From: a virus
Reading direction: 5' to 3' (one strand)
IMG/VR virus record: IMGVR_UViG_3300019776_001028
Span: 1-41,571 of that record
DNA: 41,571 bases
Each line of letters begins with the position of its first letter. Positions within the stretch are counted from its first letter, which is position 1. Made by a program: the position numbers and the translations under genes. The notes below the pieces were generated by a model, which did not search any database, was not told the DNA's origin, and worked only from the letters and a program-made list of their open reading frames with translations. This document shows positions 3,978 through 41,547 of the stretch, one piece after another.

Positions 3978-4049
3978 GGAACTATAGCTCAGTTGGTAGA
4001 GCAGTGGACTGAAAATCCATGCGCACAGGTTCGAATCCTGTTAGTTCCA
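3978..4049 (+). tRNA. Phage-borne tRNA-Phe (GAA)
   Basis: A full cloverleaf can be drawn: 7-bp acceptor GGAACTA/TAGTTCC, D arm GCTC/GAGC, anticodon stem GTGGA/TCCAT with loop CTGAAAA (anticodon GAA), a 4-nt variable loop, T stem ACAGG/CCTGT with loop TTCGAAT, discriminator A. CCA is not encoded. It lies between early genes inside the prophage, so it belongs to the phage. It could supplement Phe codon reading during lytic growth or resist host tRNA-cleaving defences; both are inference. Confidence 0.93.
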
Positions 4050-4280: not shown

Positions 4281-4354
4281 GAAAGAGTGTCCGAATTGGT
4301 TAAGGTCTTCCGTTGCAAGCGGAATGTTTGGGGGTTCGAGTCCCTCCTCTTTCT
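4281..4354 (+). tRNA. Phage-borne tRNA-Cys (GCA), unusual D arm
   Basis: Acceptor GAAAGAG/CTCTTTC (7 bp), anticodon stem TTCCG/CGGAA with loop TTGCAAG (anticodon GCA), T stem GGGGG/CCCTC (one G:T) with loop TTCGAGT, and discriminator T, which is a Cys identity element. The D arm (TCCGAATTGGTTAAGGT) pairs poorly and resembles the D arm of Bacteroidetes tRNA-Ser, so the gene could be a chimera or a diverged isoacceptor. Second tRNA of the prophage. Confidence 0.75.
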
Positions 4355-4441: not shown

Positions 4442-5314
4442 ATGTCTGGCAACAAAAACAAATTGATCGCTTTTAATTATTTCGGTGGAAAGTTCACTTG
4501 GCTTAATCATTTGTATGCCTATTTTCCTAATGACTTTACTCATCTGGCAGATTTGTTTGGCGGTTCAATGGTTGTTTCTCTAAATTATAAAGGCAAGTGT
4601 ATTAAAACCGTAAACGAAATAAATGGTAGTGTTACTGATTTTTTTGAAGTACTACGTGATGACACGGAAAATTTGATTCTAAAATTAGAATTGTCGCCCT
4701 GCTCCGAAGAAAATTATAATCAGTGTTGGCCCATTGCTGGCGACAAACTGGAACGTGCAAGAAAATTTTATGTGCGAGCTCGTCAAAGCTATTACGGATT
4801 AGGGGCTCAACGTGAAAATAAGTCGTGGCACATGGCTAAAACAAAACTTCACGCTCAAGTTGGCGAAACGGTTTCTAAATGGAATAATGCTTTGCCCAAA
4901 CTTTTGGAAGTAGCCAGAGTAATCCGTGCAAATTTTCAAATCATAAAAATGGATGCTTTAGAGGCTATCCTGAAATTGGATTCTCCCAAAACATTTTTCT
5001 ATTTGGATCCACCTTATTTATTAGAAACTCGAGGTTCAAAAGATGATTATATGTTTGAGTTTTCAGAATCTCAATATCATGAAATGGCTACCATTCTATA
5101 TAAAATAAAAGGTTACGCAATGATATCTGGATATGACCATCCATTGATGTATGAGTTATTTGAGAGCAAGGGATGGACAAAAATAGAATTCCCTACCAAA
5201 AAGAATAATATCAGATCAAAACAAGTTCGAGAATGCATTTGGATTAATTATCCATTGACCACAACCAATTCTAACAACGGAAAGCAATCAAAGCTTTTAT
5301 TGAAAAACAGTTAA
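4442..5314 (+). CDS. DNA adenine N6-methyltransferase, D12 (Dam) class, copy 1
   Basis: Transfers a methyl group from S-adenosylmethionine to adenine in DNA. The D12-class signature is visible: the FNYFGGK motif near residue 14, the SAM-binding DLFGGS at about 38-43, and the catalytic DPPY at about 183-186. Total length of 290 aa is normal for the family. The target site cannot be read from sequence. It is followed 8 bp later by a cytosine methyltransferase, and no restriction endonuclease is nearby, so the pair is an orphan modification unit, probably protecting phage DNA from host restriction. It is only distantly similar to the second copy at 13449-14306. Confidence 0.93.
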   Translation: MSGNKNKLIAFNYFGGKFTWLNHLYAYFPNDFTHLADLFGGSMVVSLNYKGKCIKTVNEINGSVTDFFEVLRDDTENLILKLELSPCSEENYNQCWPIAGDKLERARKFYVRARQSYYGLGAQRENKSWHMAKTKLHAQVGETVSKWNNALPKLLEVARVIRANFQIIKMDALEAILKLDSPKTFFYLDPPYLLETRGSKDDYMFEFSESQYHEMATILYKIKGYAMISGYDHPLMYELFESKGWTKIEFPTKKNNIRSKQVRECIWINYPLTTTNSNNGKQSKLLLKNS

Positions 5315-5322
5315 AAACGACT

Positions 5323-6903
5323 ATGAAAGAAAACGTTAACATTTATTGGATTGACTTATTTTGCGGTGCTGGCGGCACGTCTCAAGGAATTCATTTAGCA
5401 TCAGAAAACACAAAAGTAATTGCATGTGTCAATCACAGTGCCAACGCCATTCTTTCACACAAACAAAACCATCCAGAAGCACAACATTTCACGGAAGACA
5501 TCAAAGATTTCGAGGTTGTCAAAAAGTTAAAAATAATAGTTGACGATTTAAGAGCCAAGGAACCGGATGCCATCATATCAATTTGGGCAAGTTTGGAATG
5601 CACCAATTTTTCGAACGCCAAAGGCGGTCAACCTCGTGACGCTGATAGCAGATCATTGGCAGAACACATGTTTATGTATTTGGAAAATCTTGATCCTGAT
5701 TTCTTTTGGATTGAAAATGTTCGAGAATTCATGTCGTGGGGACCATTAGACCAAAATGGCAAACCCATTTCTAAAGATGCCGGCACTTATTACCTGAATT
5801 GGGTTAAACAAGTCGAATCTTTCGGTTATTCTTCAGATAAAAAAATATGCAATTCTGCTGATTTTGGAGCCTACCAAGCCCGCAAAAGATTGTTTATCCA
5901 ATTTGCGAAACCCGAATATCCTATTAGTTGGCCAGAACATACCCACGCCAAAAATGTGGAGAATTCTACACTCAAAAAATGGAAACCGGTTAAAGAGGTT
6001 TTGGATCTGGATTTAGAAGGAAAAAGCATTTTCGACCGTAAAATACCACTTTCAGAAAATACTTTGAAACGAATTTATGCGGGTTTAATAAAGTTTGTGG
6101 CCAATGGCGAAAAAGGCTTTACCAAACAGTATAATTCTGGCAACGATGCTCAAAGAGTAAAATCGTTCAATGAGCCAATAGGAACGATTACCACCCAAAA
6201 TTCACACGCCATCGTTTCAACACACTTAAACACCTATTATGGCAATGGTGCAGTTTGTTCTATCGATAGTCCATCGCCAACCATCACAACAAAAGACCGA
6301 ATTGCAAAAGTAGATGTACGTTTTTTAAATATGCAATACGGAAACAGTACAGCTGTAACTATTGATAATCCATCGCCAACAATTACAGCAGTTCCCAAAC
6401 TGAATTTGGTAAAAATTGAGCCTGCTACATTTTTGGTTAATGCCAATAGTAGTACATCAGGACCAAACGACATCAATAATCCGTCACCTACCATCACATC
6501 GGTAAGAACTCATTATTTGGTAAATCCACAATTCACAAGTCCAGGGAATTCTATTGAAGTTCCCGCACCTACTGTTATTGCCCGCCAAGATAAAAAACCG
6601 CTTTCCATCGTTCAAGTTGACTACGGTCAAGCCATCATCAATGTTTTTGAAGACGATTCGGAAACGATGGTTTTGATTAAAGAATTCATGGCATTGTACA
6701 ACATAATTGATATTAAAATGAGAATGTTGATTATTTCAGAATTAAAGCAAATTCAAGGTTTGCCGAGAGATTACAAGCTAATAGGAGCGCAATGGGAGCA
6801 AAAAAAGCAAATAGGCAATGCCGTGGAAGTAAACACAGCAAAGGCATTGGTTCGCCATCATTACAAAACCGTAAATAAACAGTATATAAAACTCGCATCA
6901 TAA
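5323..6903 (+). CDS. DNA cytosine-5 methyltransferase with five repeated PSPTIT boxes
   Basis: C5-methyltransferase motifs appear in order: motif I DLFCGAGGTSQG (about 11-22), motif IV SLECTNFS (about 89-96), motif VI ENV (about 133), motif VIII QARKRLF (about 186-192), and motifs IX/X QGLPRDY and QIGNAVEV near the C-terminus. Motif IV has EC in place of the usual PC, a variant I recall from some phage enzymes. Between VIII and IX, at about residues 283, 315, 348, 385 and 412, lie five copies of a PxPTIT-type box, several preceded by a YGN or NSS/SPGNS turn. One or two such boxes are usual next to the target-recognition domain. At 526 aa the enzyme is long for the class, owing to these repeats. 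Confidence 0.92.
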   Translation: MKENVNIYWIDLFCGAGGTSQGIHLASENTKVIACVNHSANAILSHKQNHPEAQHFTEDIKDFEVVKKLKIIVDDLRAKEPDAIISIWASLECTNFSNAKGGQPRDADSRSLAEHMFMYLENLDPDFFWIENVREFMSWGPLDQNGKPISKDAGTYYLNWVKQVESFGYSSDKKICNSADFGAYQARKRLFIQFAKPEYPISWPEHTHAKNVENSTLKKWKPVKEVLDLDLEGKSIFDRKIPLSENTLKRIYAGLIKFVANGEKGFTKQYNSGNDAQRVKSFNEPIGTITTQNSHAIVSTHLNTYYGNGAVCSIDSPSPTITTKDRIAKVDVRFLNMQYGNSTAVTIDNPSPTITAVPKLNLVKIEPATFLVNANSSTSGPNDINNPSPTITSVRTHYLVNPQFTSPGNSIEVPAPTVIARQDKKPLSIVQVDYGQAIINVFEDDSETMVLIKEFMALYNIIDIKMRMLIISELKQIQGLPRDYKLIGAQWEQKKQIGNAVEVNTAKALVRHHYKTVNKQYIKLAS

Positions 6904-9934: not shown

Positions 9935-10015
9935 TTAAAATCTAAAAAATCTACATTTTAAAAACAGGGTAGCCGAAAACTGGATAGAGTAGGCAAATTT
10001 TAAATACATTTTATT

Positions 10016-10420
10016 ATGAAAAAATTAAGTTTGATTATGTTGGTTTTGGTGTCTTTGAGTTTGGTTTCTTGCTGGGACTGGAACCGGGAACAGGCTTTGA
10101 AAGATGCCGAAAACCAAGGAAAAGCGATTTTATTTAAGTCTGAAAATTCTAAAAAAGCTTTGATTGAGCAAGCCAAAGCCGAAAATGAAAGTGCCACATT
10201 GCACGCTGAAGCAAGAATTAAAATTGCAAAAGCGCAAGCACAAGCTGAAATAGAAAGGGCCTATGGTGTGGCAAAAGCCAATGAAATCATAGGGAATTCA
10301 CTCAAAGGAAATAGTGAATATCTGAGATACTTAATGATTCAAGGCTTAAATGACAGCAAAGGCGAACGAATTTACATCCCTACCGAAGCCGGATTACCCA
10401 TTTTAGAAGCCAGAAAGTAA
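10016..10420 (+). CDS. Lipoprotein with a band-7-like C-terminal tail (134 aa)
   Basis: The N-terminus is a type II signal peptide with lipobox LVSC (Cys at about residue 19), so the mature protein is lipid-anchored. An Ala/Glu/Lys-rich helix (about 40-95, EQAKAENESATLHAEARIKIAKAQAQAEIERAYG) follows. The tail, LRYLMIQGLNDSKGERIYIPTEAGLPIL, resembles the end of prohibitin/HflC-like (SPFH) proteins, but the SPFH domain itself is absent. A lipoprotein in the early region could act in superinfection exclusion or in membrane changes during infection; this is inference. Confidence 0.6.
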   Translation: MKKLSLIMLVLVSLSLVSCWDWNREQALKDAENQGKAILFKSENSKKALIEQAKAENESATLHAEARIKIAKAQAQAEIERAYGVAKANEIIGNSLKGNSEYLRYLMIQGLNDSKGERIYIPTEAGLPILEARK

Positions 10421-12041: not shown

Positions 12042-12370
12042 ATTTCAAACTTAAAGCCGACACTATTTCTCTTATCAGGTATACGCTGGAGGAAATATAC
12101 TATTTAAACGCATCACAAACAGCAGATTACAGATTGAGCCGTCCAACACTGTTTGCGCTGACTAAAAAATTCACTAATAAACAATTGTCTTTGTATAAAG
12201 AGTTGCCTGTGAATGATAAAAAACGCCATAAAATTAACTTTGAAATTCACGAAGCTGTTTTGTTAAGAGGAATACTGATTACCACAATTGAAGAAATTGA
12301 CAATCAGTATTCCGCTTTGTTAATGAATAATTTTATTGAGGAATTACGCCGCCAAACCACTGCTTTTTAA
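12038..12370 (+). CDS. Last early-operon gene, hypothetical (110 aa)
   Basis: ATGA overlap with the preceding gene. Predicted all-helical; the pattern YYLNASQTADYRLSRPTLFALTKKFTNKQ could hold an HTH. Its 3' end runs 38 bp into the convergent cytosine methyltransferase gene with no visible terminator between, so transcripts from the two sides would overlap. Confidence 0.55.
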   Translation: MNFKLKADTISLIRYTLEEIYYLNASQTADYRLSRPTLFALTKKFTNKQLSLYKELPVNDKKRHKINFEIHEAVLLRGILITTIEEIDNQYSALLMNNFIEELRRQTTAF

Positions 12371-13382
12371 TTTCATTGGCTATGCTGGCCGTCATTAATG
12401 GTGGTACACTCATTCCGCATACATACCGAACATCGGCACCGCAATAATCAAAATCAGTTGGAAAACTGCTCATTCTTGAATATTCAGTATCATTCAGGTT
12501 CCGCACCTCTTCATAATAGACCGTTGTGCCGCTACTGGTAAGCGTAGGTGGCACACTATCATTATAAAGTACACTTGTACTGAAAAAGGCATTATAAGTG
12601 CTTAAATTCCTGTATTTAGCATCGGCAAACTTTAAATTCTGGTCTCCACGTTCCACAAAAGGCCATCGCAATTGTATGGATGGCCACAATGGTTTGTGTG
12701 TTGTAGAACCTTTGTCTACCACGCTCCCAAACTGAATGGGTTTTTCGTTGAATACAGGCTTCAAATCAGGTAAATTCAAATCCTTGCGCCTTGCAATGAA
12801 AAAAATGCGCTCACGGGCTTGCGGTACGCCCATGGTGGCACTATTGAGTTGAAATATCTGAACTTCGTACCCTATTTTATTTAATCGCTCGACAATTTTA
12901 ATAGTGTACCCTTTAGCTCTACCGGCCACAATGCCACAAACATTTTCTAAAATAGCCACTTTTGGGCGAAGCTTTGCAATAGTATCGCAATACACAAACA
13001 CCAGATCATCGAGCGTTTGTTTTTGCTGTCCTTCCCGGAATACTTTTTCTACTCCCCATCCCTTTTCTCTTTTGCCCGACATTGAGAATGTGCTACACGG
13101 TGGCGAGCCGTCTAAAATATCTAAATTATAAAGTTCACTGGGTAAATCAGTACGTTGGTTGAAATCCCGAATGTCCTCCAGATAAAAATATTTTGGATTG
13201 TGGTTGGTTTGGTAAATATGGCCCATTCGTTTGTCAATTTCTACGCCTCCCAAATGATTGAATCCTGCTAATTTATAACCCATCGTAGAGCCACCACCAC
13301 AAACAAAGGTTCCGAAAACGTTTAAACCATTTTTTGATGGGTAGTCATTTTGTTTTGTCCAATCGTATCTTAATTTTTTCAT
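12333..13382 (-). CDS. DNA cytosine-5 methyltransferase, canonical type
   Basis: Methylates cytosine at C5. Motif I is present in modified form (VFGTFVCGGGSTMGYKLAG, about 22-40). Motif IV is GSPPCSTFS (about 92-100) with the catalytic PC, motif VI is ENVCG (about 147), motif VIII is PQARERIFFI (about 188-197), and the C-terminal motif region is YSRMSSFPTDF. At 349 aa it is of normal length for a single-specificity enzyme. It is clearly different from the long enzyme at 5323-6903. It follows an adenine methyltransferase in the same operon, and no cognate endonuclease is present. Confidence 0.92.
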   Translation of the reverse strand: MKKLRYDWTKQNDYPSKNGLNVFGTFVCGGGSTMGYKLAGFNHLGGVEIDKRMGHIYQTNHNPKYFYLEDIRDFNQRTDLPSELYNLDILDGSPPCSTFSMSGKREKGWGVEKVFREGQQKQTLDDLVFVYCDTIAKLRPKVAILENVCGIVAGRAKGYTIKIVERLNKIGYEVQIFQLNSATMGVPQARERIFFIARRKDLNLPDLKPVFNEKPIQFGSVVDKGSTTHKPLWPSIQLRWPFVERGDQNLKFADAKYRNLSTYNAFFSTSVLYNDSVPPTLTSSGTTVYYEEVRNLNDTEYSRMSSFPTDFDYCGADVRYVCGMSVPPLMTASIANEIKKQWFGGVIPQ

Positions 13383-13452
13383 AGTCTTTTTTTATGGTGT
13401 CGATATCCAGTTCACGGTTCACAAAATCCCTCTGTTTCTTTCGCATTTTCAT
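13345..13452 (-). CDS. Small coupled ORF between the two methyltransferases (35 aa)
   Basis: An ATG at 13452 overlaps the adenine methyltransferase stop (ATGA), and the frame runs to 13345, 38 bp past the start of the cytosine methyltransferase. The peptide is highly basic and helical. It may be a real small protein, or a bridge that keeps ribosomes on the mRNA so that the cytosine methyltransferase ATG, which lies inside it, is reached. Expression is unproven. Confidence 0.4.
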   Translation of the reverse strand: MKMRKKQRDFVNRELDIDTIKKDYEKIKIRLDKTK

Positions 13453-14306
13453 GATCCGGTAGAATTTGAAGTCCATCCTTTATACAACATGATATCGGTA
13501 TAACTATTTTGGAAATTAACCTGGTTTTTTGTTTCTTCCCGAATTGCACCGTTAAAAGGATTTGACATTGGAGTTTTGGTTTCAATCCATTCGCACAATT
13601 CGATAATTGACGACTTATTGGAAGTGAAATAGAAATAATTTGTACCATCCAAAACCTGCAGCACATCCAAATAATCTTTGAGTTTCCAATAACTTTTGTA
13701 GGTACCGGTTTCAGTCGATAAATAAGGTGGATCAACAAGAAAAACCACGTTTGGACAATCTTTATATTTGTGGAATAATTCTTTGTAGTCAAGGCTTACC
13801 ACTTCCAGCCCGTCTAAATAACCCACCGCCGTGTAATTTGACTGTCTAACGGTGTTGTATAGGGTTTCTTTTTTCAATTGCTCTAATGACTGTACATATT
13901 TCATCGAAAATAAAACCGAACTACTCAAAGTGATATAGTCCACATAGCCGTTATTGTCTTCGAGTTCCACGCGTTCCATTACTTTGTCCCTGAACTCGTC
14001 AATTATTTTTTTATCGGCCGGGCTGTCTTTTAAAATTGCCCTCAGATCAGCGATAAGTTGATTGGTCTTATCGATGTTGGCCAGCCGTTCCGAATAGCTG
14101 TCAAAGTCGTTGTAAATTACTTTTGCACCGGCATAAACTTGCTTGACCGTGTGCGACAATAACCCACTGCCACCAAATAGATCGACATAGACGGCATCGT
14201 CTGGATAATTGGTTAAAGCATTTTTGAAATCTTTTAAAAACCTCCTTTTTTGACCCATAAACGGCAATGGTGCTGCCGTGTAATTTTTCTTTTTTTCTAA
14301 ATTCAT
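13449..14306 (-). CDS. DNA adenine N6-methyltransferase, D12 (Dam) class, copy 2
   Basis: D12-class motifs: PFMGQKRRF near residue 14, SAM-binding DLFGGSG (about 42-48), NDFD (about 66), and catalytic DPPY (about 157-160). 285 aa, normal for the class. Outside these motifs it shares little with the copy at 4442-5314, so it probably recognises another site and is not a recent duplicate. It is the first gene of the leftward methyltransferase unit. The + strand RNA gene at about 14342-14466 starts in the opposite direction from the DNA just upstream. Confidence 0.92.
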   Translation of the reverse strand: MNLEKKKNYTAAPLPFMGQKRRFLKDFKNALTNYPDDAVYVDLFGGSGLLSHTVKQVYAGAKVIYNDFDSYSERLANIDKTNQLIADLRAILKDSPADKKIIDEFRDKVMERVELEDNNGYVDYITLSSSVLFSMKYVQSLEQLKKETLYNTVRQSNYTAVGYLDGLEVVSLDYKELFHKYKDCPNVVFLVDPPYLSTETGTYKSYWKLKDYLDVLQVLDGTNYFYFTSNKSSIIELCEWIETKTPMSNPFNGAIREETKNQVNFQNSYTDIMLYKGWTSNSTGS

Positions 14307-14308
14307 TT

Positions 14309-14337
14309 TTTGATTGATAATTGATGATGTATCTTTG
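14309..14337 (+). promoter_or_regulatory. Bacteroidetes-type promoter for a small RNA
   Basis: TATCTTTG at 14330-14337 matches the -7 consensus TAnnTTTG exactly. TTTG at 14309-14312 provides the upstream element, with a 17-bp gap. A start about 6-7 bp after the -7 box falls at about 14343, where the first arm of the RNA's outer stem begins. No + strand reading frame follows. It lies directly upstream of, and divergent from, the adenine methyltransferase start. Confidence 0.65.
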
Positions 14338-14341
14338 TCGC

Positions 14342-14466
14342 CTCACAGAATTAAAATAGCAAAGCCAACGAATAAGAAGACATTAAATTTTGTCCTCCAA
14401 CTCGTTGGCTTTGTGCTAAAAATTAAAATTCTGTGAGAAGTTTTTAATTGTTGGAGGACTTTTTTC
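14342..14466 (+). ncRNA. Putative structured small RNA with loop-tail pseudoknot
   Basis: Outer stem P1 pairs 14342-14352 with 14427-14437 (11 bp, CTCACAGAATT). Inner stem P2 pairs 14361-14371 with 14402-14412 (11 bp), then TAGC/GCTA across a 2-nt bulge. The last 10 nt of the 30-nt apical loop (14392-14401, GTCCTCCAAC) are perfectly complementary to 14450-14459 (GTTGGAGGAC). That segment runs into six T's, so it can be read as a pseudoknot or as a terminator stem. A further CCTCCAA at 14471-14477 can pair with the same GGAGG, giving a competing hairpin. No open frame fits. A 5'-UTR role on the other strand for the methyltransferase is the main alternative. Confidence 0.6.
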
Positions 14467-14496
14467 CTTGCCTCCAAAGGATTTTATTAAGTTGTT

Positions 14497-14991
14497 TTAT
14501 GGTTCAAAATTCCATTTTTCGGGATTTAAGACCATTGGTTCGTGATTTTTCAATTCATAAAGAACATTCCAACCATACATGTTGTCGAAAATAGGCCCTA
14601 CTTTTTCGATTTTTACCGAATTGATATCGAACATTCCGAACAACCAGGAGCCGTTTGTTTTATTTTGGGTGACCAAATAAGAAATGATATCCAAGGCGAT
14701 ATTTTCCAATCTGTCCAATACTTCATTTTGCTTGTCGAAATTGCCTGCCTTGCCTGCAAAATCTAACAATAGAAAGGATATTTTACGACTATTGAAATTG
14801 GAAACCATTTTGGTTTGGCTTTCCAAGTCGCTAGAATGACTTTCTAGCAAAAAAGCTGGTGTGGAAACTCCAGAACGGAACTGCCCAATTATCTCATTCA
14901 TATCGAACCGATAAAATCCTTTGATGTCCACGTGTGCCGTGGCAATGTCTTCGTTAAATTTTACAATTTCACTATGTGTTTTTCTGGGCAT
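14497..14991 (-). CDS. Hypothetical phage protein, last gene of the leftward late operon (164 aa)
   Basis: No recognised domain. The C-terminal half (DRLENIALDIISYL, then VGPIFDNMYGWNVLYEL) has the alternating helix-strand look of small head-tail or tail-completion proteins in Bacteroidetes phages, but this is only resemblance. It overlaps the upstream gene by 20 bp. Its distal position after the lysis genes is unusual for a completion protein, so the role stays open. Confidence 0.55.
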   Translation of the reverse strand: MPRKTHSEIVKFNEDIATAHVDIKGFYRFDMNEIIGQFRSGVSTPAFLLESHSSDLESQTKMVSNFNSRKISFLLLDFAGKAGNFDKQNEVLDRLENIALDIISYLVTQNKTNGSWLFGMFDINSVKIEKVGPIFDNMYGWNVLYELKNHEPMVLNPEKWNFEP

Positions 14992-23501: not shown

Positions 23502-23845
23502 TAGTAAATAACTTTTCGGTTGTTGATTGATATGATGAAATCGATACGTACTTTTTTTATTTCGCCATTCGGCAATTCAATGTTTCTTGTTCGATTGTCA
23601 AAGTGCGATGGTTTTTTTTCTGATTTTTCTTCAGCGAAAATGGCTTCGATAGATTTGCTTGGCAAAGCGTTTGGATTGGCTTCTGGAAGATGTTTTACTT
23701 TTTCGTAAACTTTCAATTTTCCGCCTTGCTTGGTTTGGGAGTTGAAGGTTCTATACGTCAAATCGAAAGGGAAAGGTTTTCCTTCCTTGTCTTTCAACTG
23801 CATAATTTTTAATGCTTCGTTCAAATAGATTTCTGTGCTTTCCAT
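23501..23845 (-). CDS. Hypothetical protein heading the portal operon (114 aa)
   Basis: I use the ATG at 23845. A longer frame starting with TTG at 23869 is less likely. Basic, mixed alpha/beta, with the motif FDLTYRTFNSQTKQGG. First gene after the late box at 23875-23885 and coupled to the portal gene. Function unknown. Confidence 0.55.
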   Translation of the reverse strand: MESTEIYLNEALKIMQLKDKEGKPFPFDLTYRTFNSQTKQGGKLKVYEKVKHLPEANPNALPSKSIEAIFAEEKSEKKPSHFDNRTRNIELPNGEIKKVRIDFIISINNRKVIY

Positions 23846-23874
23846 AGGACAAACTTCCAAAACCTGCAAAACAT

Positions 23875-23885
23875 AAAATAGGACA
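23875..23885 (-). promoter_or_regulatory. Late box TGTCCTATTTT, copy B
   Basis: On the minus strand the box lies 13 bp after the terminator stem at 23899-23925 and ends 30 bp before the ATG at 23845. A partial copy (TGTCCTAT) overlaps that start codon. It matches the four other late boxes exactly over 11 bp. Confidence 0.6.
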
Positions 23886-23898
23886 GCATTTTTTATCC

Positions 23899-23925
23899 AA
23901 AACCCACTATTTAAGAGTGGGTTTT
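23899..23925 (-). terminator. Intrinsic terminator between terminase and portal units
   Basis: A 10-bp stem AAAACCCACT/AGTGGGTTTT with a 7-nt loop, followed on the minus strand by an A/T-rich tail. It would end the terminase transcript just before the late box of the portal unit. The stem's T-run on the other strand makes it potentially bidirectional. The 150 bp between it and the terminase stop hold no convincing gene. Confidence 0.7.
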
Positions 23926-24070
23926 CTATTTTTCAAAACGTTACTTTAATGAAATTCAACATTTTGACCCTATTGAAACTGTTTAAAATTCTATTTTTTA
24001 TCTAGCAACCACGCCTGTCCCTTAAAATTTTTACACTTTCCATTTGTGAAAATTCAGGATATATGAAAAG

Positions 24071-30229: not shown

Positions 30230-31096
30230 ATTTTTGTTTGTGTTTTGATTGATATTATCGTTTAAATTGGCAAGGCTAAACACCTTGTCTATTGCAGTTT
30301 GCAAAGTCCCTGTTTCATCAATTAAGCCCATTTCTAAAGCTTTTTCGCCGCTCCAAGTTCCGCCAGCAAAAACGGCTTCATTCAATTGCGGACGTGTCGC
30401 CAACATATCCGCGTGAAATGTGGCAACAATTGGATCTAATACATTTTTGATGTATGGCTCGTAGTTGGAATTGTCGATTACTTCTCTATAATCGCCGTTT
30501 TTTTCGGTAGAAGCTGTGGCATAAAATTCATGTACTTTTGCACCGTATTTTTCCCATATTCCAGAAAAATCAACAATTGTAGTGTAAGCTCCGATAGAGC
30601 CAATGGCATCGGCACGCTTATTGGCTACAATCCATGTAGCGGCATTTCCAAGATAGTAAGCCGCTGAACACATATAACCATCGGTATAAGTAACAATGGG
30701 TTTTGGGTATGCTCTTAAATAATCATAAAATTCGCCGGTTCCATATACTTGACCGCCTCCGCTGTCTATATCCAAAACAACTCCAGCAACACTAGGGTCA
30801 TTTTTATAATAGTCTAAAATGGAGACAAAGGATTTTGTACCTAAATATTCATAAGTTGAAAATTTTTGAATAGGCGTTTTAATGGAGAGAATAACTACCG
30901 TAGTGGCAGTTACTCCAGAAGTATCATTTGATGAAGATTGCGATTTGTTAACCGCTGCCAATTCTTTTTCCTTTTCGGTTTTGACAGAAGTTTTACCAAG
31001 TACTAAAGCAGAATATAGCGAAGGGATTAATGACTGCGCATATTCCTTGTTGATGTAGAATGGACTTGCAAAAATGCTCTGTAGATTGTTTTCCAA
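29768..31096 (-). CDS. Prohead protease (S49/SppA type) fused to a scaffold domain
   Basis: Residues about 60-270 are an S49 peptidase: DIDSGGGQV (about 109-117), GYMCSAAYYLGNAA with the catalytic Ser (about 144), then GSIGAYTT, and a conserved Lys in ASTEKNGDYRE (about 199) completing the Ser/Lys dyad. A second part (about 290-442) is a Glu/Ala-rich coiled coil, typical of internal scaffolds. Such proteins cleave the scaffold and capsid tails during head maturation. An in-frame ATG at residue 290 could allow the scaffold to be made alone. Confidence 0.88.
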   Translation of the reverse strand: MENNLQSIFASPFYINKEYAQSLIPSLYSALVLGKTSVKTEKEKELAAVNKSQSSSNDTSGVTATTVVILSIKTPIQKFSTYEYLGTKSFVSILDYYKNDPSVAGVVLDIDSGGGQVYGTGEFYDYLRAYPKPIVTYTDGYMCSAAYYLGNAATWIVANKRADAIGSIGAYTTIVDFSGIWEKYGAKVHEFYATASTEKNGDYREVIDNSNYEPYIKNVLDPIVATFHADMLATRPQLNEAVFAGGTWSGEKALEMGLIDETGTLQTAIDKVFSLANLNDNINQNTNKNMSKQLLKVQAVLGLTAALATTDNGSYLNEEQLDLIENRIDALETSEADLQTQLEEAKKNPALQTELATATGTIASLETSVDAILVEAGLEATGTVTEKIAALSGKVKEMANKDGANHTTTIVDPKQAAGQTKTYVDANAGHNQLANEMFNPKK

Positions 31097-31103
31097 TGCA
31101 AAA

Positions 31104-38207: not shown

Positions 38208-40105
38208 TGAGTTTAATTAAGATAATTGCAAACAATATTGAACTGGATATTGTAAAGGAAACTTTAACCATTACCAAGGAAAACAATTCTTTGATAAATG
38301 ATTTTAAAGTTTCATTTTCCAATTTTCCTTTTTTGATTGTTGAAAATTCAAAAACAATAAAAGCACTCGGTGGCAGGGATATTACAACGTGCAATAAACC
38401 AAAAATAGTGCCTGTAATTGTCGAAGAACTTAATCAAAGATATTATGGCGAATTACAAATTTTATCCTATTTGAATGGTTTTAGAAAAGTCACTTTGAAG
38501 TATGCCACGGAATTACTCTCAATAATGGACAAGCCAATTGCGAGTTTTATGCCTGTAGTTTCGGTAATACCGGAAGAAATATCGCCAGTTCCATATGCAG
38601 AAACTGCAACGGACATAATTACTGGTTCCGAATATTGGGAAACCTATCCAATTCCTTTTATGTCCCAAGGATTTCCTGATGTAAAGTGGCAATTTCCAAC
38701 GATGAAATGGCAAGATAAATTTGGCAAAGAATTGACCGCTGAGGATTCTTGGTTTCTATACGAAGCCGAAATAAATAAATATTCGATGGATTTAACTGCT
38801 TTTATAAAAAACACCTTTACGGAAAGTAGTTCGGAAATAACCGGAGTGGTTAACAAAAATGTTCCTAGTCCACAACTTTATCTATTGTCTCCATTATTTT
38901 ATGCCTTGCAATCCAAAGGATTTACCGCTGAAGGTACGTTTTGTTCAAATGATTTTGTAAAAAAAATATTAATTCAATCCAGTAAAAATAATATCTCTGA
39001 AACTTCTTTGGTTAAACTGGTACATACTTTTGTTTTTTCTGGAGGGTTTGCGTATGATTCTTATTCACAGATGCACTACAAAGACATATCTTATAATGTT
39101 GCAGTGGCTGGAAACTACATACTGGACTATTCATTTACTTTTGCAGGCCCATTGTCATTAAGTAACAATCCATCGTTGTTTAAATTATTTTTTCAACGTC
39201 CTCCAAAACCAGGATTCACGCCTTCTGATCTAATTTTTAATATTACTGAAATAACAGATGCTACTTATACAATTTCCGGCACCCAGAATTTTGAATTGTT
39301 GGCCGGAACTTCACACGTTTCTTATTTTGCCAAAACGACAGTGATGCCTATATCTTATGAAGTAAATCTAAAAATTCCATCAGAAAAAAAACTCCAACAA
39401 ATGCATCCTACCATTGATCTTGGTAGATATGTGCCTGACTGGACTTTTGGCACTTACTTGAATGAATTGAAGAAGTTGTTTAATTTAAAATTTGATATTG
39501 ATGATTTTAGAAAAAAAATCAGTCTTAATTTCAACGAAGAAATAATTGAAAATTCAGAAAAGGAAATCTTGAAACAATCACTGGCCATAAAAACGTATGA
39601 CCAGCCACCTTACACGGCATTTCACTTGAAATTTCAAAATGATGTCGATACGGCTCTTTGGATTACTTCAGATGGAGCCGATACTTTTGTAGCTCAAAAA
39701 TCTGATTTTTCTGAATCACTGGAAAGTAAATTTAAAATTGTTCCCAATAATGCGTACACCGCTGAATTATCCGACGATTTGGACAGCAAAGATGGCGTGG
39801 GCTTAATGATTTACGACAATTATTTTCCGCCATACATAGTCGCAAAATATGCCAACAAAACCTTGTCAATGGATGGTAAAGGCGGCATTTATAATTTCTT
39901 TCATAAAAACTGGCTAAAATTCAGGCTAAACGCATCGCCTGTTGAATTGACAGGATATTTCACTGAAATGGAATTGTCAAAAATTCAAAAATTGGAAAGA
40001 ATTTATGTTGATAACCAAGACTATTTAGTTTCTATTTTAGAATACTCGGAAACGGATCAGAATAATTTCGAAGTGTTGTTGAAAGTGGTAAGTGTAAATC
40101 TTTAA
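38207..40105 (+). CDS. Large baseplate/tail-tip protein (632 aa)
   Basis: Beta-rich protein with an N-terminal INNIELDIVKETLTITKEN-like opening and no enzymatic motif. It is the last gene of the tail operon, placed where siphophages encode hub or tip proteins. It probably contacts the fibre at 37665-38207. Its stop overlaps the integrase stop by 4 bp, with no terminator between the convergent genes. Confidence 0.65.
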   Translation: MSLIKIIANNIELDIVKETLTITKENNSLINDFKVSFSNFPFLIVENSKTIKALGGRDITTCNKPKIVPVIVEELNQRYYGELQILSYLNGFRKVTLKYATELLSIMDKPIASFMPVVSVIPEEISPVPYAETATDIITGSEYWETYPIPFMSQGFPDVKWQFPTMKWQDKFGKELTAEDSWFLYEAEINKYSMDLTAFIKNTFTESSSEITGVVNKNVPSPQLYLLSPLFYALQSKGFTAEGTFCSNDFVKKILIQSSKNNISETSLVKLVHTFVFSGGFAYDSYSQMHYKDISYNVAVAGNYILDYSFTFAGPLSLSNNPSLFKLFFQRPPKPGFTPSDLIFNITEITDATYTISGTQNFELLAGTSHVSYFAKTTVMPISYEVNLKIPSEKKLQQMHPTIDLGRYVPDWTFGTYLNELKKLFNLKFDIDDFRKKISLNFNEEIIENSEKEILKQSLAIKTYDQPPYTAFHLKFQNDVDTALWITSDGADTFVAQKSDFSESLESKFKIVPNNAYTAELSDDLDSKDGVGLMIYDNYFPPYIVAKYANKTLSMDGKGGIYNFFHKNWLKFRLNASPVELTGYFTEMELSKIQKLERIYVDNQDYLVSILEYSETDQNNFEVLLKVVSVNL

Positions 40106-41325
40106 AAATTTACACTTTCTATAATTTTCCTATGCACTTCATCTTGAGTGCTGTCGAGAAAATCACCTTCATAAATGCTATGAACATCGCCACGGGTATG
40201 GCCAGTTAATTCCATAATTACATCTCGGTTCAGCTCTAGTTTTTTTCCGATATCAATAAATGTGTAACGGGGTGTTTTGGTGGTAAAATAGCTGTCAACC
40301 CCAATCGATTTCAGCCATTTTCCAAATCGGTCGTTGTAATTTTTTCGTAAATTTTCGTATTCCACCGTGTGGCAATTAATCAAATAATCGGAATCGTCTT
40401 TGTATAAATCCAAAATTGCCTGAGCCTGGGGGAATATTTTATTGTTGATCCATTCGTATGTGGTTCCGCCTTTGAAGCGTTTAAAAATAACACGGTCTTT
40501 TTTTACGTGCGCAGAATACCGCAAATTGGCGATATCAATAAAATCCAAACCTCCAAGATAAAAGCACAGTAAAAAATAATTATGGTAATGATAGGGTCTG
40601 TCTTTGCTTTTTTCGCTGCTATTGTAGCTTAAAATGGTTGGAGCGTTAAATCCATTTTTGGGATTCAAATTAGCCAAAACAGTCTTCATTTCTTCAATTG
40701 TGAAATACTTGTCTTTAGTTTTCTCTGTTTTTTTAATCACTCCAGAAAAAGGATTTTTGGCAGTTTTCGGAATAAAAACATCTCGCCTAATAGCCTCGTT
40801 ATAAACGGCTCTCATTGTTCGCAAATAAACATTTATACCATTTGTTTCGCAACCGTTTTTTAGTTTATAATCCCGGTAAGCGATTAAAAAACTATAATCT
40901 ACATCATCAAAATTTACCTCGCTTCGCCATTGTTTCAAAAGCGACAAATGAAGTTTGTAGGCTTTGTGGACGGCTTTTCCGTTTTTTTCATACTCCTGGG
41001 CCAGCGAATGCCAAAAATCCAAATAGCTTTCTGAATTTCCGCCAATCAGTGCTTTTTCAATTTTTTCCAAACTCCAGTGTTCGGAAGTTGCTGTATTTTT
41101 AAGGTTTAATATTTCAATTTTTTTCAAAGCAATCCACTCGTATAGAAACAAAAAATTAGGATGCTGTTTAGTTGGCTCGAAGGCTTCGACATTAAATTGT
41201 TCCAAAAAAGTATAGTGAGGTGTTGAAATCCATTTTTCGCTCCCTTTTTTCAAATACACATAAATTTTAATTGGATATCCCTGACTGGTAAGGTTTCGTT
41301 TGTCTATTTTTAATTGAATATTCAT
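40102..41325 (-). CDS. int: Tyrosine site-specific recombinase (integrase), divergent active site
   Basis: Drives integration at, and excision from, tRNA-Arg. The N-terminal arm-binding part (about 1-90) is followed by a SAM-like core-binding domain (about 100-190, YLDFWHSLAQEYEKNGK...) and the catalytic domain. Lys at 282-285 (FKRFKGG), RYTF with Arg 353, TGH (His 376) and the nucleophile SIYEGDF (Tyr 385) are visible. The usual first Arg is absent: the segment reads FYLGGLDFIDIANL (about 255-268). The first His of HxxR is Lys 350. It lies next to attR and is transcribed away from it. Confidence 0.92.
   Translation of the reverse strand: MNIQLKIDKRNLTSQGYPIKIYVYLKKGSEKWISTPHYTFLEQFNVEAFEPTKQHPNFLFLYEWIALKKIEILNLKNTATSEHWSLEKIEKALIGGNSESYLDFWHSLAQEYEKNGKAVHKAYKLHLSLLKQWRSEVNFDDVDYSFLIAYRDYKLKNGCETNGINVYLRTMRAVYNEAIRRDVFIPKTAKNPFSGVIKKTEKTKDKYFTIEEMKTVLANLNPKNGFNAPTILSYNSSEKSKDRPYHYHNYFLLCFYLGGLDFIDIANLRYSAHVKKDRVIFKRFKGGTTYEWINNKIFPQAQAILDLYKDDSDYLINCHTVEYENLRKNYNDRFGKWLKSIGVDSYFTTKTPRYTFIDIGKKLELNRDVIMELTGHTRGDVHSIYEGDFLDSTQDEVHRKIIESVNF

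Positions 41326-41472: not shown

Positions 41473-41547
<75 letters not shown>

Follow-up and report, generated by a model that had tools for sequence, protein, structure and literature searches.

A predicted structured RNA of Bacteroidota phages that keeps its fold beside DNA-modification genes while its sequence changes

The present study analyzes a window comprising the whole of a 41,571-nucleotide viral record (IMGVR_UViG_3300019776_001028), and in particular a noncoding interval between a divergent D12-class DNA methyltransferase gene and a gene for a late protein (14497-14991). The elements recognized there are given in Table 1. Several of them had been proposed in the first-pass annotation, and direct reading agrees with it on the promoter (TTTG, 17 bp, TATCTTTG), on a perfect 11-bp outer stem, on an inner stem (read here as 12 bp extended by weaker pairs), and on a loop segment, A, fully complementary to a downstream segment, B, that runs into T6 (10 bp, 100% complementary in the window). 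That observation was right and, if anything, undersold; two hairpins, P4 and P3, are added to the description here. P4 is A/T-only and weak in the window RNA, whereas it is strong in a second group of loci (group 2). The region folds with a minimum free energy of -52.4 kcal/mol, a figure that omits the pseudoknot, compared with -29.1 +/- 3.7 kcal/mol for dinucleotide shuffles (z -6.3), and none of 200 shuffles was as stable. The expected product is a noncoding RNA of approximately 120-140 nt, whose transcription would begin at P1 under the control of a host-type promoter of its own.

Table 1. Elements of the putative RNA locus and its divergent neighbor in the window.
Feature	Position	Strand	Remarks
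Bacteroidota-type promoter	14309-14337	+	TTTG 14309-14312, 17-nt spacer, TATCTTTG 14330-14337; read directly
P1 5′ strand, CTCACAGAATT	14342-14352	+	perfect 11-bp pairing with 14427-14437; probable RNA 5′ end
P2 hairpin	14360-14413	+	arms 14360-14371 and 14402-14413; 12 bp, weaker pairs extend the stem
A′, purine-rich, within P2 loop	14373-14381	+	
Segment A, GTCCTCCAAC, within P2 loop	14392-14401	+	pairs with B
P4 hairpin	14421-14449	+	arms AATTAAAA 14421-14428 and TTTTAATT 14442-14449; encloses P1 3′ strand
P1 3′ strand, in P4 loop	14427-14437	+	partner of 14342-14352
Segment B, GTTGGAGGAC	14450-14459	+	common partner for A and C
T-run (T6)	14460-14465	+	probable short-form termination point
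P3 hairpin, TCCTT/AAGGA	14465-14481	+	segment C in loop
Segment C, CCTCCAA	14471-14477	+	from repeat search
D12-class N6-adenine DNA methyltransferase gene, divergent neighbor	13449-14306	-	Pfam MethyltransfD12, E 4.9e-12

Other features of the window lie farther from the locus. Two tRNA genes are found towards the left end (3978-4049 and 4281-4354) and a third at the right end (41474-41547), and the end tRNAs with an integrase-like open reading frame (40102-41325, minus strand) could represent an attachment-site arrangement. Methyltransferases occur in two clusters, one at 4442-6903 with a second D12 enzyme (4478-5185) and a C5-like open reading frame (5323-6903, by eye), the other at 12333-14306, where a C5 enzyme recognized by Pfam (12333-13382) stands beside the D12 enzyme adjoining the RNA. 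A DUF805b RNA (Rfam RF02914) at 9963-9995 on the plus strand, at 36.5 bits and barely over the cut-off, precedes an open reading frame at 10016.

Searching phage records by BLASTN with the window RNA gave nothing useful because the stem sequences diverge fast; homologues were reached via the neighboring D12 methyltransferase protein, then with a custom parser and two covariance models (R1, built from A2, and R2, built from A4), and parser and models recovered well over a hundred copies. From a GTDB scan, 76 of 80 homologue loci had the RNA on the opposite strand within approximately 1.3 kb upstream of the D12 methyltransferase (43 by the parser and 33 by the model, L090 among these being weak at E 0.015), and one of the remaining four, L068, was without upstream sequence. 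A blind search detected the RNA in 35 of 300 Flavobacterium genomes, with up to five matches per genome, and a D12 methyltransferase was absent within 1.5 kb of over half of those copies that were examined. R2 matched in 5 of 395 genomes when a broader, class-level sample was searched with strict filters. Hankyphage p00 (at about 40,530-40,683) and the isolated Flavobacterium phage fF4 (at 30,967-31,103) both carry the RNA on the minus strand. Using the downstream late protein as bait yielded loci without the RNA at that place. One additional weak R1 match within the window itself (23830-23952, minus strand; 24.2 bits, E 0.37) is probably due to chance.

Comparison across more than 100 loci supports the earlier proposal of a selected RNA having its own plus-strand promoter, a pseudoknot and a competing segment. 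Among 116 distinct copies, 1138 of 1218 interior positions of P1 were Watson-Crick paired, and P1 covaries. Many two-sided changes were found in P2 and P4, with strong covariation in P2 and, for group 2, covariation in P4, whose score was at least 7 in 72% as opposed to 23% of controls. For the entire structure the covariation score was 0.495, compared with 0.197 when shuffled and at most 0.13 with partners slid. The A:B pairing held in 97-99% of cells in both alignments, and its score of 12.5 exceeded the 8.7 +/- 0.2 obtained with permuted partners. The suggestion that a third segment, C, vies for B was upheld too, a B:C run of at least 5 Watson-Crick pairs occurring in 67% vs 14% of shuffles, as was a hairpin around C (P3) in 55% vs 11%. 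In one locus, L171, both sides of the pseudoknot were wholly replaced (A is GAGCATCCGGTT, B is AACCGGATGCTC) with 12 bp retained, and past the T-run ACTC-AACATCCAA-GAGT again presents a hairpin loop complementary to B. Hankyphages jmh43 and jmh47/jmh72 are otherwise near-identical in this region, but P2 has been rewritten between them with its pairing retained, and in jmh72 compared with jmh43 both arms of P3 change together, from ATCC/GGAT to CCC/GGG. The first-pass annotation had asked whether paired segments change in related phages without compensation; compensatory changes were many, and the RNA withstood the comparison. These alignments give good support to the existence and fold of a genuine family of structured RNAs in Bacteroidota phages, with gut and freshwater hosts, and the predicted fold is kept beside DNA-modification genes while the sequence has changed almost completely. 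The two P2 arms of some group 2 loci (for example L056, L018 and L157) are each near-palindromic (GGTGC....CACC), a pattern suggestive of descent from a binding site for a protein or from a hairpin that was duplicated. CCUCC was also considered as an anti-Shine-Dalgarno sequence; this was rejected, because lineages replace it (by CCCCC, or by GCAUCC in L171) together with B.

Several patterns point to the plus strand. In 108 of 113 copies a TAnnTTTG box preceded P1, mostly by 0-4 nt, compared with 2 of 113 in a control stretch, and 112 of 116 copies had at least 5 T within 8 nt after B. Pair types in A:B comprised 98 G.U against 5 A.C, and those in P4 lean the same way; this excess suggests that the plus strand is the structured RNA. 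Nearly all strong covariance-model matches point away from the neighboring gene, and the reverse strand had the lower covariance score wherever both strands matched. An opposing sign is that the weak apical pairing A′:A has A.C on the plus strand. This may be due to composition, A′ being purine-rich and A pyrimidine-rich, and the A.C pairs would leave A′:A a weak competitor displaceable by A:B (median helix energies are -16.8 kcal/mol for A:B, -15.5 for P1, -10.3 for B:C and -3.9 for A′:A). A terminator scan of the plus strand found no conventional hairpin directly before the T-run, so that A:B is the sole candidate terminator stem, and the pseudoknot probably doubles as the terminator of the RNA. 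C and P3 are conserved past this putative terminator, so the usual 3′ end may lie elsewhere than at the T-run.

Across 38 contexts mapped, the RNA was typically antisense to the late operon and located at its 3′ end. The distance from the RNA 5′ end to the start codon of a divergent gene, most often one for DNA modification, was usually 25-60 nt. Orientation speaks against a cis riboswitch or attenuator for the methyltransferase, and this reading was rejected, as genes downstream of the RNA in these contexts were almost all on the opposite strand. The divergent gene could be a D12 methyltransferase, a ThyA-family protein (PF00303, E 4e-23), a second D12 methyltransferase, or an ABC-ATPase/GNAT protein, the last followed by a formyltransferase-like gene (a label assigned by eye). 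Adjacency to a methyltransferase operon, as first annotated, is therefore correct in the window and incomplete for the family, and a dedicated methyltransferase partner was rejected since ThyA-like or ABC/GNAT genes can substitute. Where a more distant methyltransferase was examined, the intervening genes encoded ThyA, an 80-aa winged-helix protein, or both. In L256 (around the RNA) and L244 the ABC-ATPase/GNAT and formyltransferase-like genes replace the methyltransferase, possibly as a Mom-like DNA-modification cassette, and in fF4 (L269; MN850656.1 31160-31624) the methyltransferase gene is truncated to approximately 155 codons beside an intact RNA. In hankyphage p00, which has MuA and MuB, the RNA lies between Avd and hp44-ThyA-methyltransferase, and in Mu-like phages (hankyphage p00, fF4) its site is a right-end accessory module. 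At its ends the phage in the window carries tRNAs and an integrase-like gene; it is of the integrase type, and the module is thus not confined to transposable phages.

These patterns suggest a mechanism in which P1 and P2 form and A, in the P2 loop, pairs with the tail segment B as a pseudoknot. Forming against the U-tract, A:B would act as a terminator and give a short form, and transcripts that pass the U-tract would keep B bound to C in the P3 loop as a long form. P4 would vie with P1 for the P1 3′ strand, possibly as a second switch in group 2 because a spacing of 0-1 nt makes both hard to combine. Since the RNA is antisense at the late-operon end and near the divergent start codon, a late transcript expressing that gene would carry the exact complement of the RNA, standing just before the coding sequence. 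The RNA promoter would be independent of the late programme, and the RNA could keep the modification module, and perhaps late read-through too, low by antisense pairing or convergent transcription. A phage-internal pairing search found no exact consistent second target within three phage genomes, which favors action at the locus itself. A selected plus-strand RNA in which B has two competing partners is well supported by the comparative data, and from the geometry its role is probably antisense restraint of the adjoining modification module. The complete reading, i.e. an autonomous plus-strand phage RNA that alternates between A:B termination and B:C read-through and restrains the adjoining module by antisense action, is the one we favor, tentatively. 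More doubtful is its extension to an RNA device in which a second partner captures the read-through tail of a loop-tail pseudoknot terminator, as a two-state switch guarding the right-end DNA-modification module of Bacteroidota transposable phages. A simple antisense RNA would need neither the conserved pseudoknot nor the competing C, so that such a role does not explain the main structural feature. At least two loci (L252 and L255) where the RNA adjoins apparent host genes and no modification gene, and one (L250) where it stands beside a membrane protein, count against a role tied to the modification module. So does, for the favored reading as a whole, the lack of correlation between linker length and P2 stem length, which a cis pseudoknot might require to track one another.

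An alternative explanation, possible and nearly as likely as antisense restraint, is a structured RNA acting in trans, which would bind a host protein or RNA polymerase as a decoy or in counter-defence, with the modification genes as fellow accessories and not targets. This would account for a structure kept while stem sequences drift, as for RNA recognized by shape, and for an autonomous promoter beside a varying neighbor gene, and there is a resemblance to 6S RNA in the closing stem, the A-rich internal loop and the apical hairpin. It would not account for the failure of the Rfam search to match any 6S family, for lineages keeping the sequence of the A/B pairing segment as opposed to an internal-loop motif, or for why a partner segment that the short form lacks, C, should be compulsory. 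The T-run directly after B in nearly all copies, with A:B as the only candidate stem, and the opposite-strand late genes that follow the RNA in the contexts mapped could also reflect a transcription insulator, in which the host-type promoter and pseudoknot terminator control antisense transcription into the late operon and the short RNA is a by-product. We regard this as unlikely, because a plain hairpin terminator would suffice, conservation of P1, P4 and P3 would be needless, and promoter retention would be unexplained.

It is quite improbable that the functional RNA is instead the minus strand, as a leader of the modification-gene mRNA whose long hairpin controls translation. On that strand the element mostly precedes a coding gene, and A.C mismatches of the apical A′:A pairing become G.U there (P2 has 175 A.C vs 36 G.T), but the bias of A:B is opposite (98 to 5) with P4 leaning likewise, promoter and T-run are oriented to the plus strand, covariance-model scores are higher on it, and a purine-rich A′ facing a pyrimidine-rich A yields A.C by composition alone. 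Pairing of A and B between molecules to give dimers or multimers, by analogy with phi29 pRNA or the ROOL and GOLLD RNAs, would fit both the survival of loop-tail complementarity through total replacement in L171 and the uncorrelated linker and P2 lengths; it leaves the T-run adjoining B unexplained, and we give it very little probability. Least likely of all is a palindromic element acting as DNA, for example a cruciform or a replication or transposition site, which the position near the right end of transposable phages might suggest. Such an element would not be expected to use G.U asymmetrically between strands in A:B and P4 or to conserve an oriented promoter, and it is also present in the integrase-type phage of the window.

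We could not find a catalogued family, in Rfam 15 or the literature, that the RNA matches. At the Rfam 15 gathering score no family was reached on the RNA, the only hits in the window being the three tRNAs and DUF805b, and relaxed searches (E <= 10 for window positions 14250-14560, E <= 1 for homologues) gave only implausible eukaryotic or low-complexity matches. The first-pass annotation had offered a 6S-like RNA as one reading and a covariance search as the check; no 6S family matched by cmscan at window positions 14250-14560 at E <= 10, nor in 18 homologous loci, which lends the 6S-like reading no support. The RNA resembles 6S RNA, including 6S-Flavo, in its closing stem, internal loop, apical stem and Bacteroidota hosts, but adds a loop-tail pseudoknot with an adjacent T-run and has so far been seen only in phage-like settings; a conserved tail pseudoknot is, to our knowledge, not a 6S feature. 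Its logic is most like that of the phage P4 CI (immunity) and P1 C4 RNAs, a likeness that need not mean membership. In those RNAs one segment has two partners, upstream and downstream, and the pairing decides termination or expression; the shared segment, part of a hairpin loop, acts in trans on replication or antirepressor leader transcripts, within an immunity region. Here too a small structured phage RNA has a segment with partners up- and downstream (A:B and B:C being above chance), but B is a linear tail whose partners lie in loops, and the gene is antisense at the late-operon end. The search for exact complements elsewhere in three phage genomes gave no consistent leader target, and imperfect ones may exist.

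The locus recalls com-mom of phage Mu, a right-end DNA-modification gene of a transposable phage that has to stay off until late. The Mu mom module is tightly limited, by the proteins C and Com and by Dam methylation, as opposed to the structured antisense RNA proposed here, and we know of no such RNA at com-mom. A 2017 survey by Weinberg reportedly described a D12-methyl RNA motif near D12 DNA methyltransferase genes; the phage RNA is likewise found near such genes but is divergent from them and not tied to D12 enzymes, a comparison based on the Rfam scan. GOLLD and ROOL are highly structured, often phage-borne noncoding RNAs (PMC12286853), similar in elaborate structure and phage carriage but several hundred nucleotides long and multimeric, in contrast to approximately 120-140 nt and another topology here. 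No earlier description of the RNA was found in the literature searched, that on hankyphages included.

Temperate hankyphages are widespread in Bacteroides of the human gut, and the RNA gene that they carry is unannotated and, by prediction, strongly structured. Published stranded RNA-seq covers a hankyphage lysogen both before and after induction (PMC12135933), and the genome of that lysogen (PV107405.1) carries the RNA, so that its transcription can be checked at once from public data. If true, ending transcription by a pseudoknot next to a U-tract, with a rival partner on the far side, would be unusual. Present in approximately one in nine sampled Flavobacterium genomes as well as in hankyphages, the RNA may offer a handle on how these phages regulate themselves.
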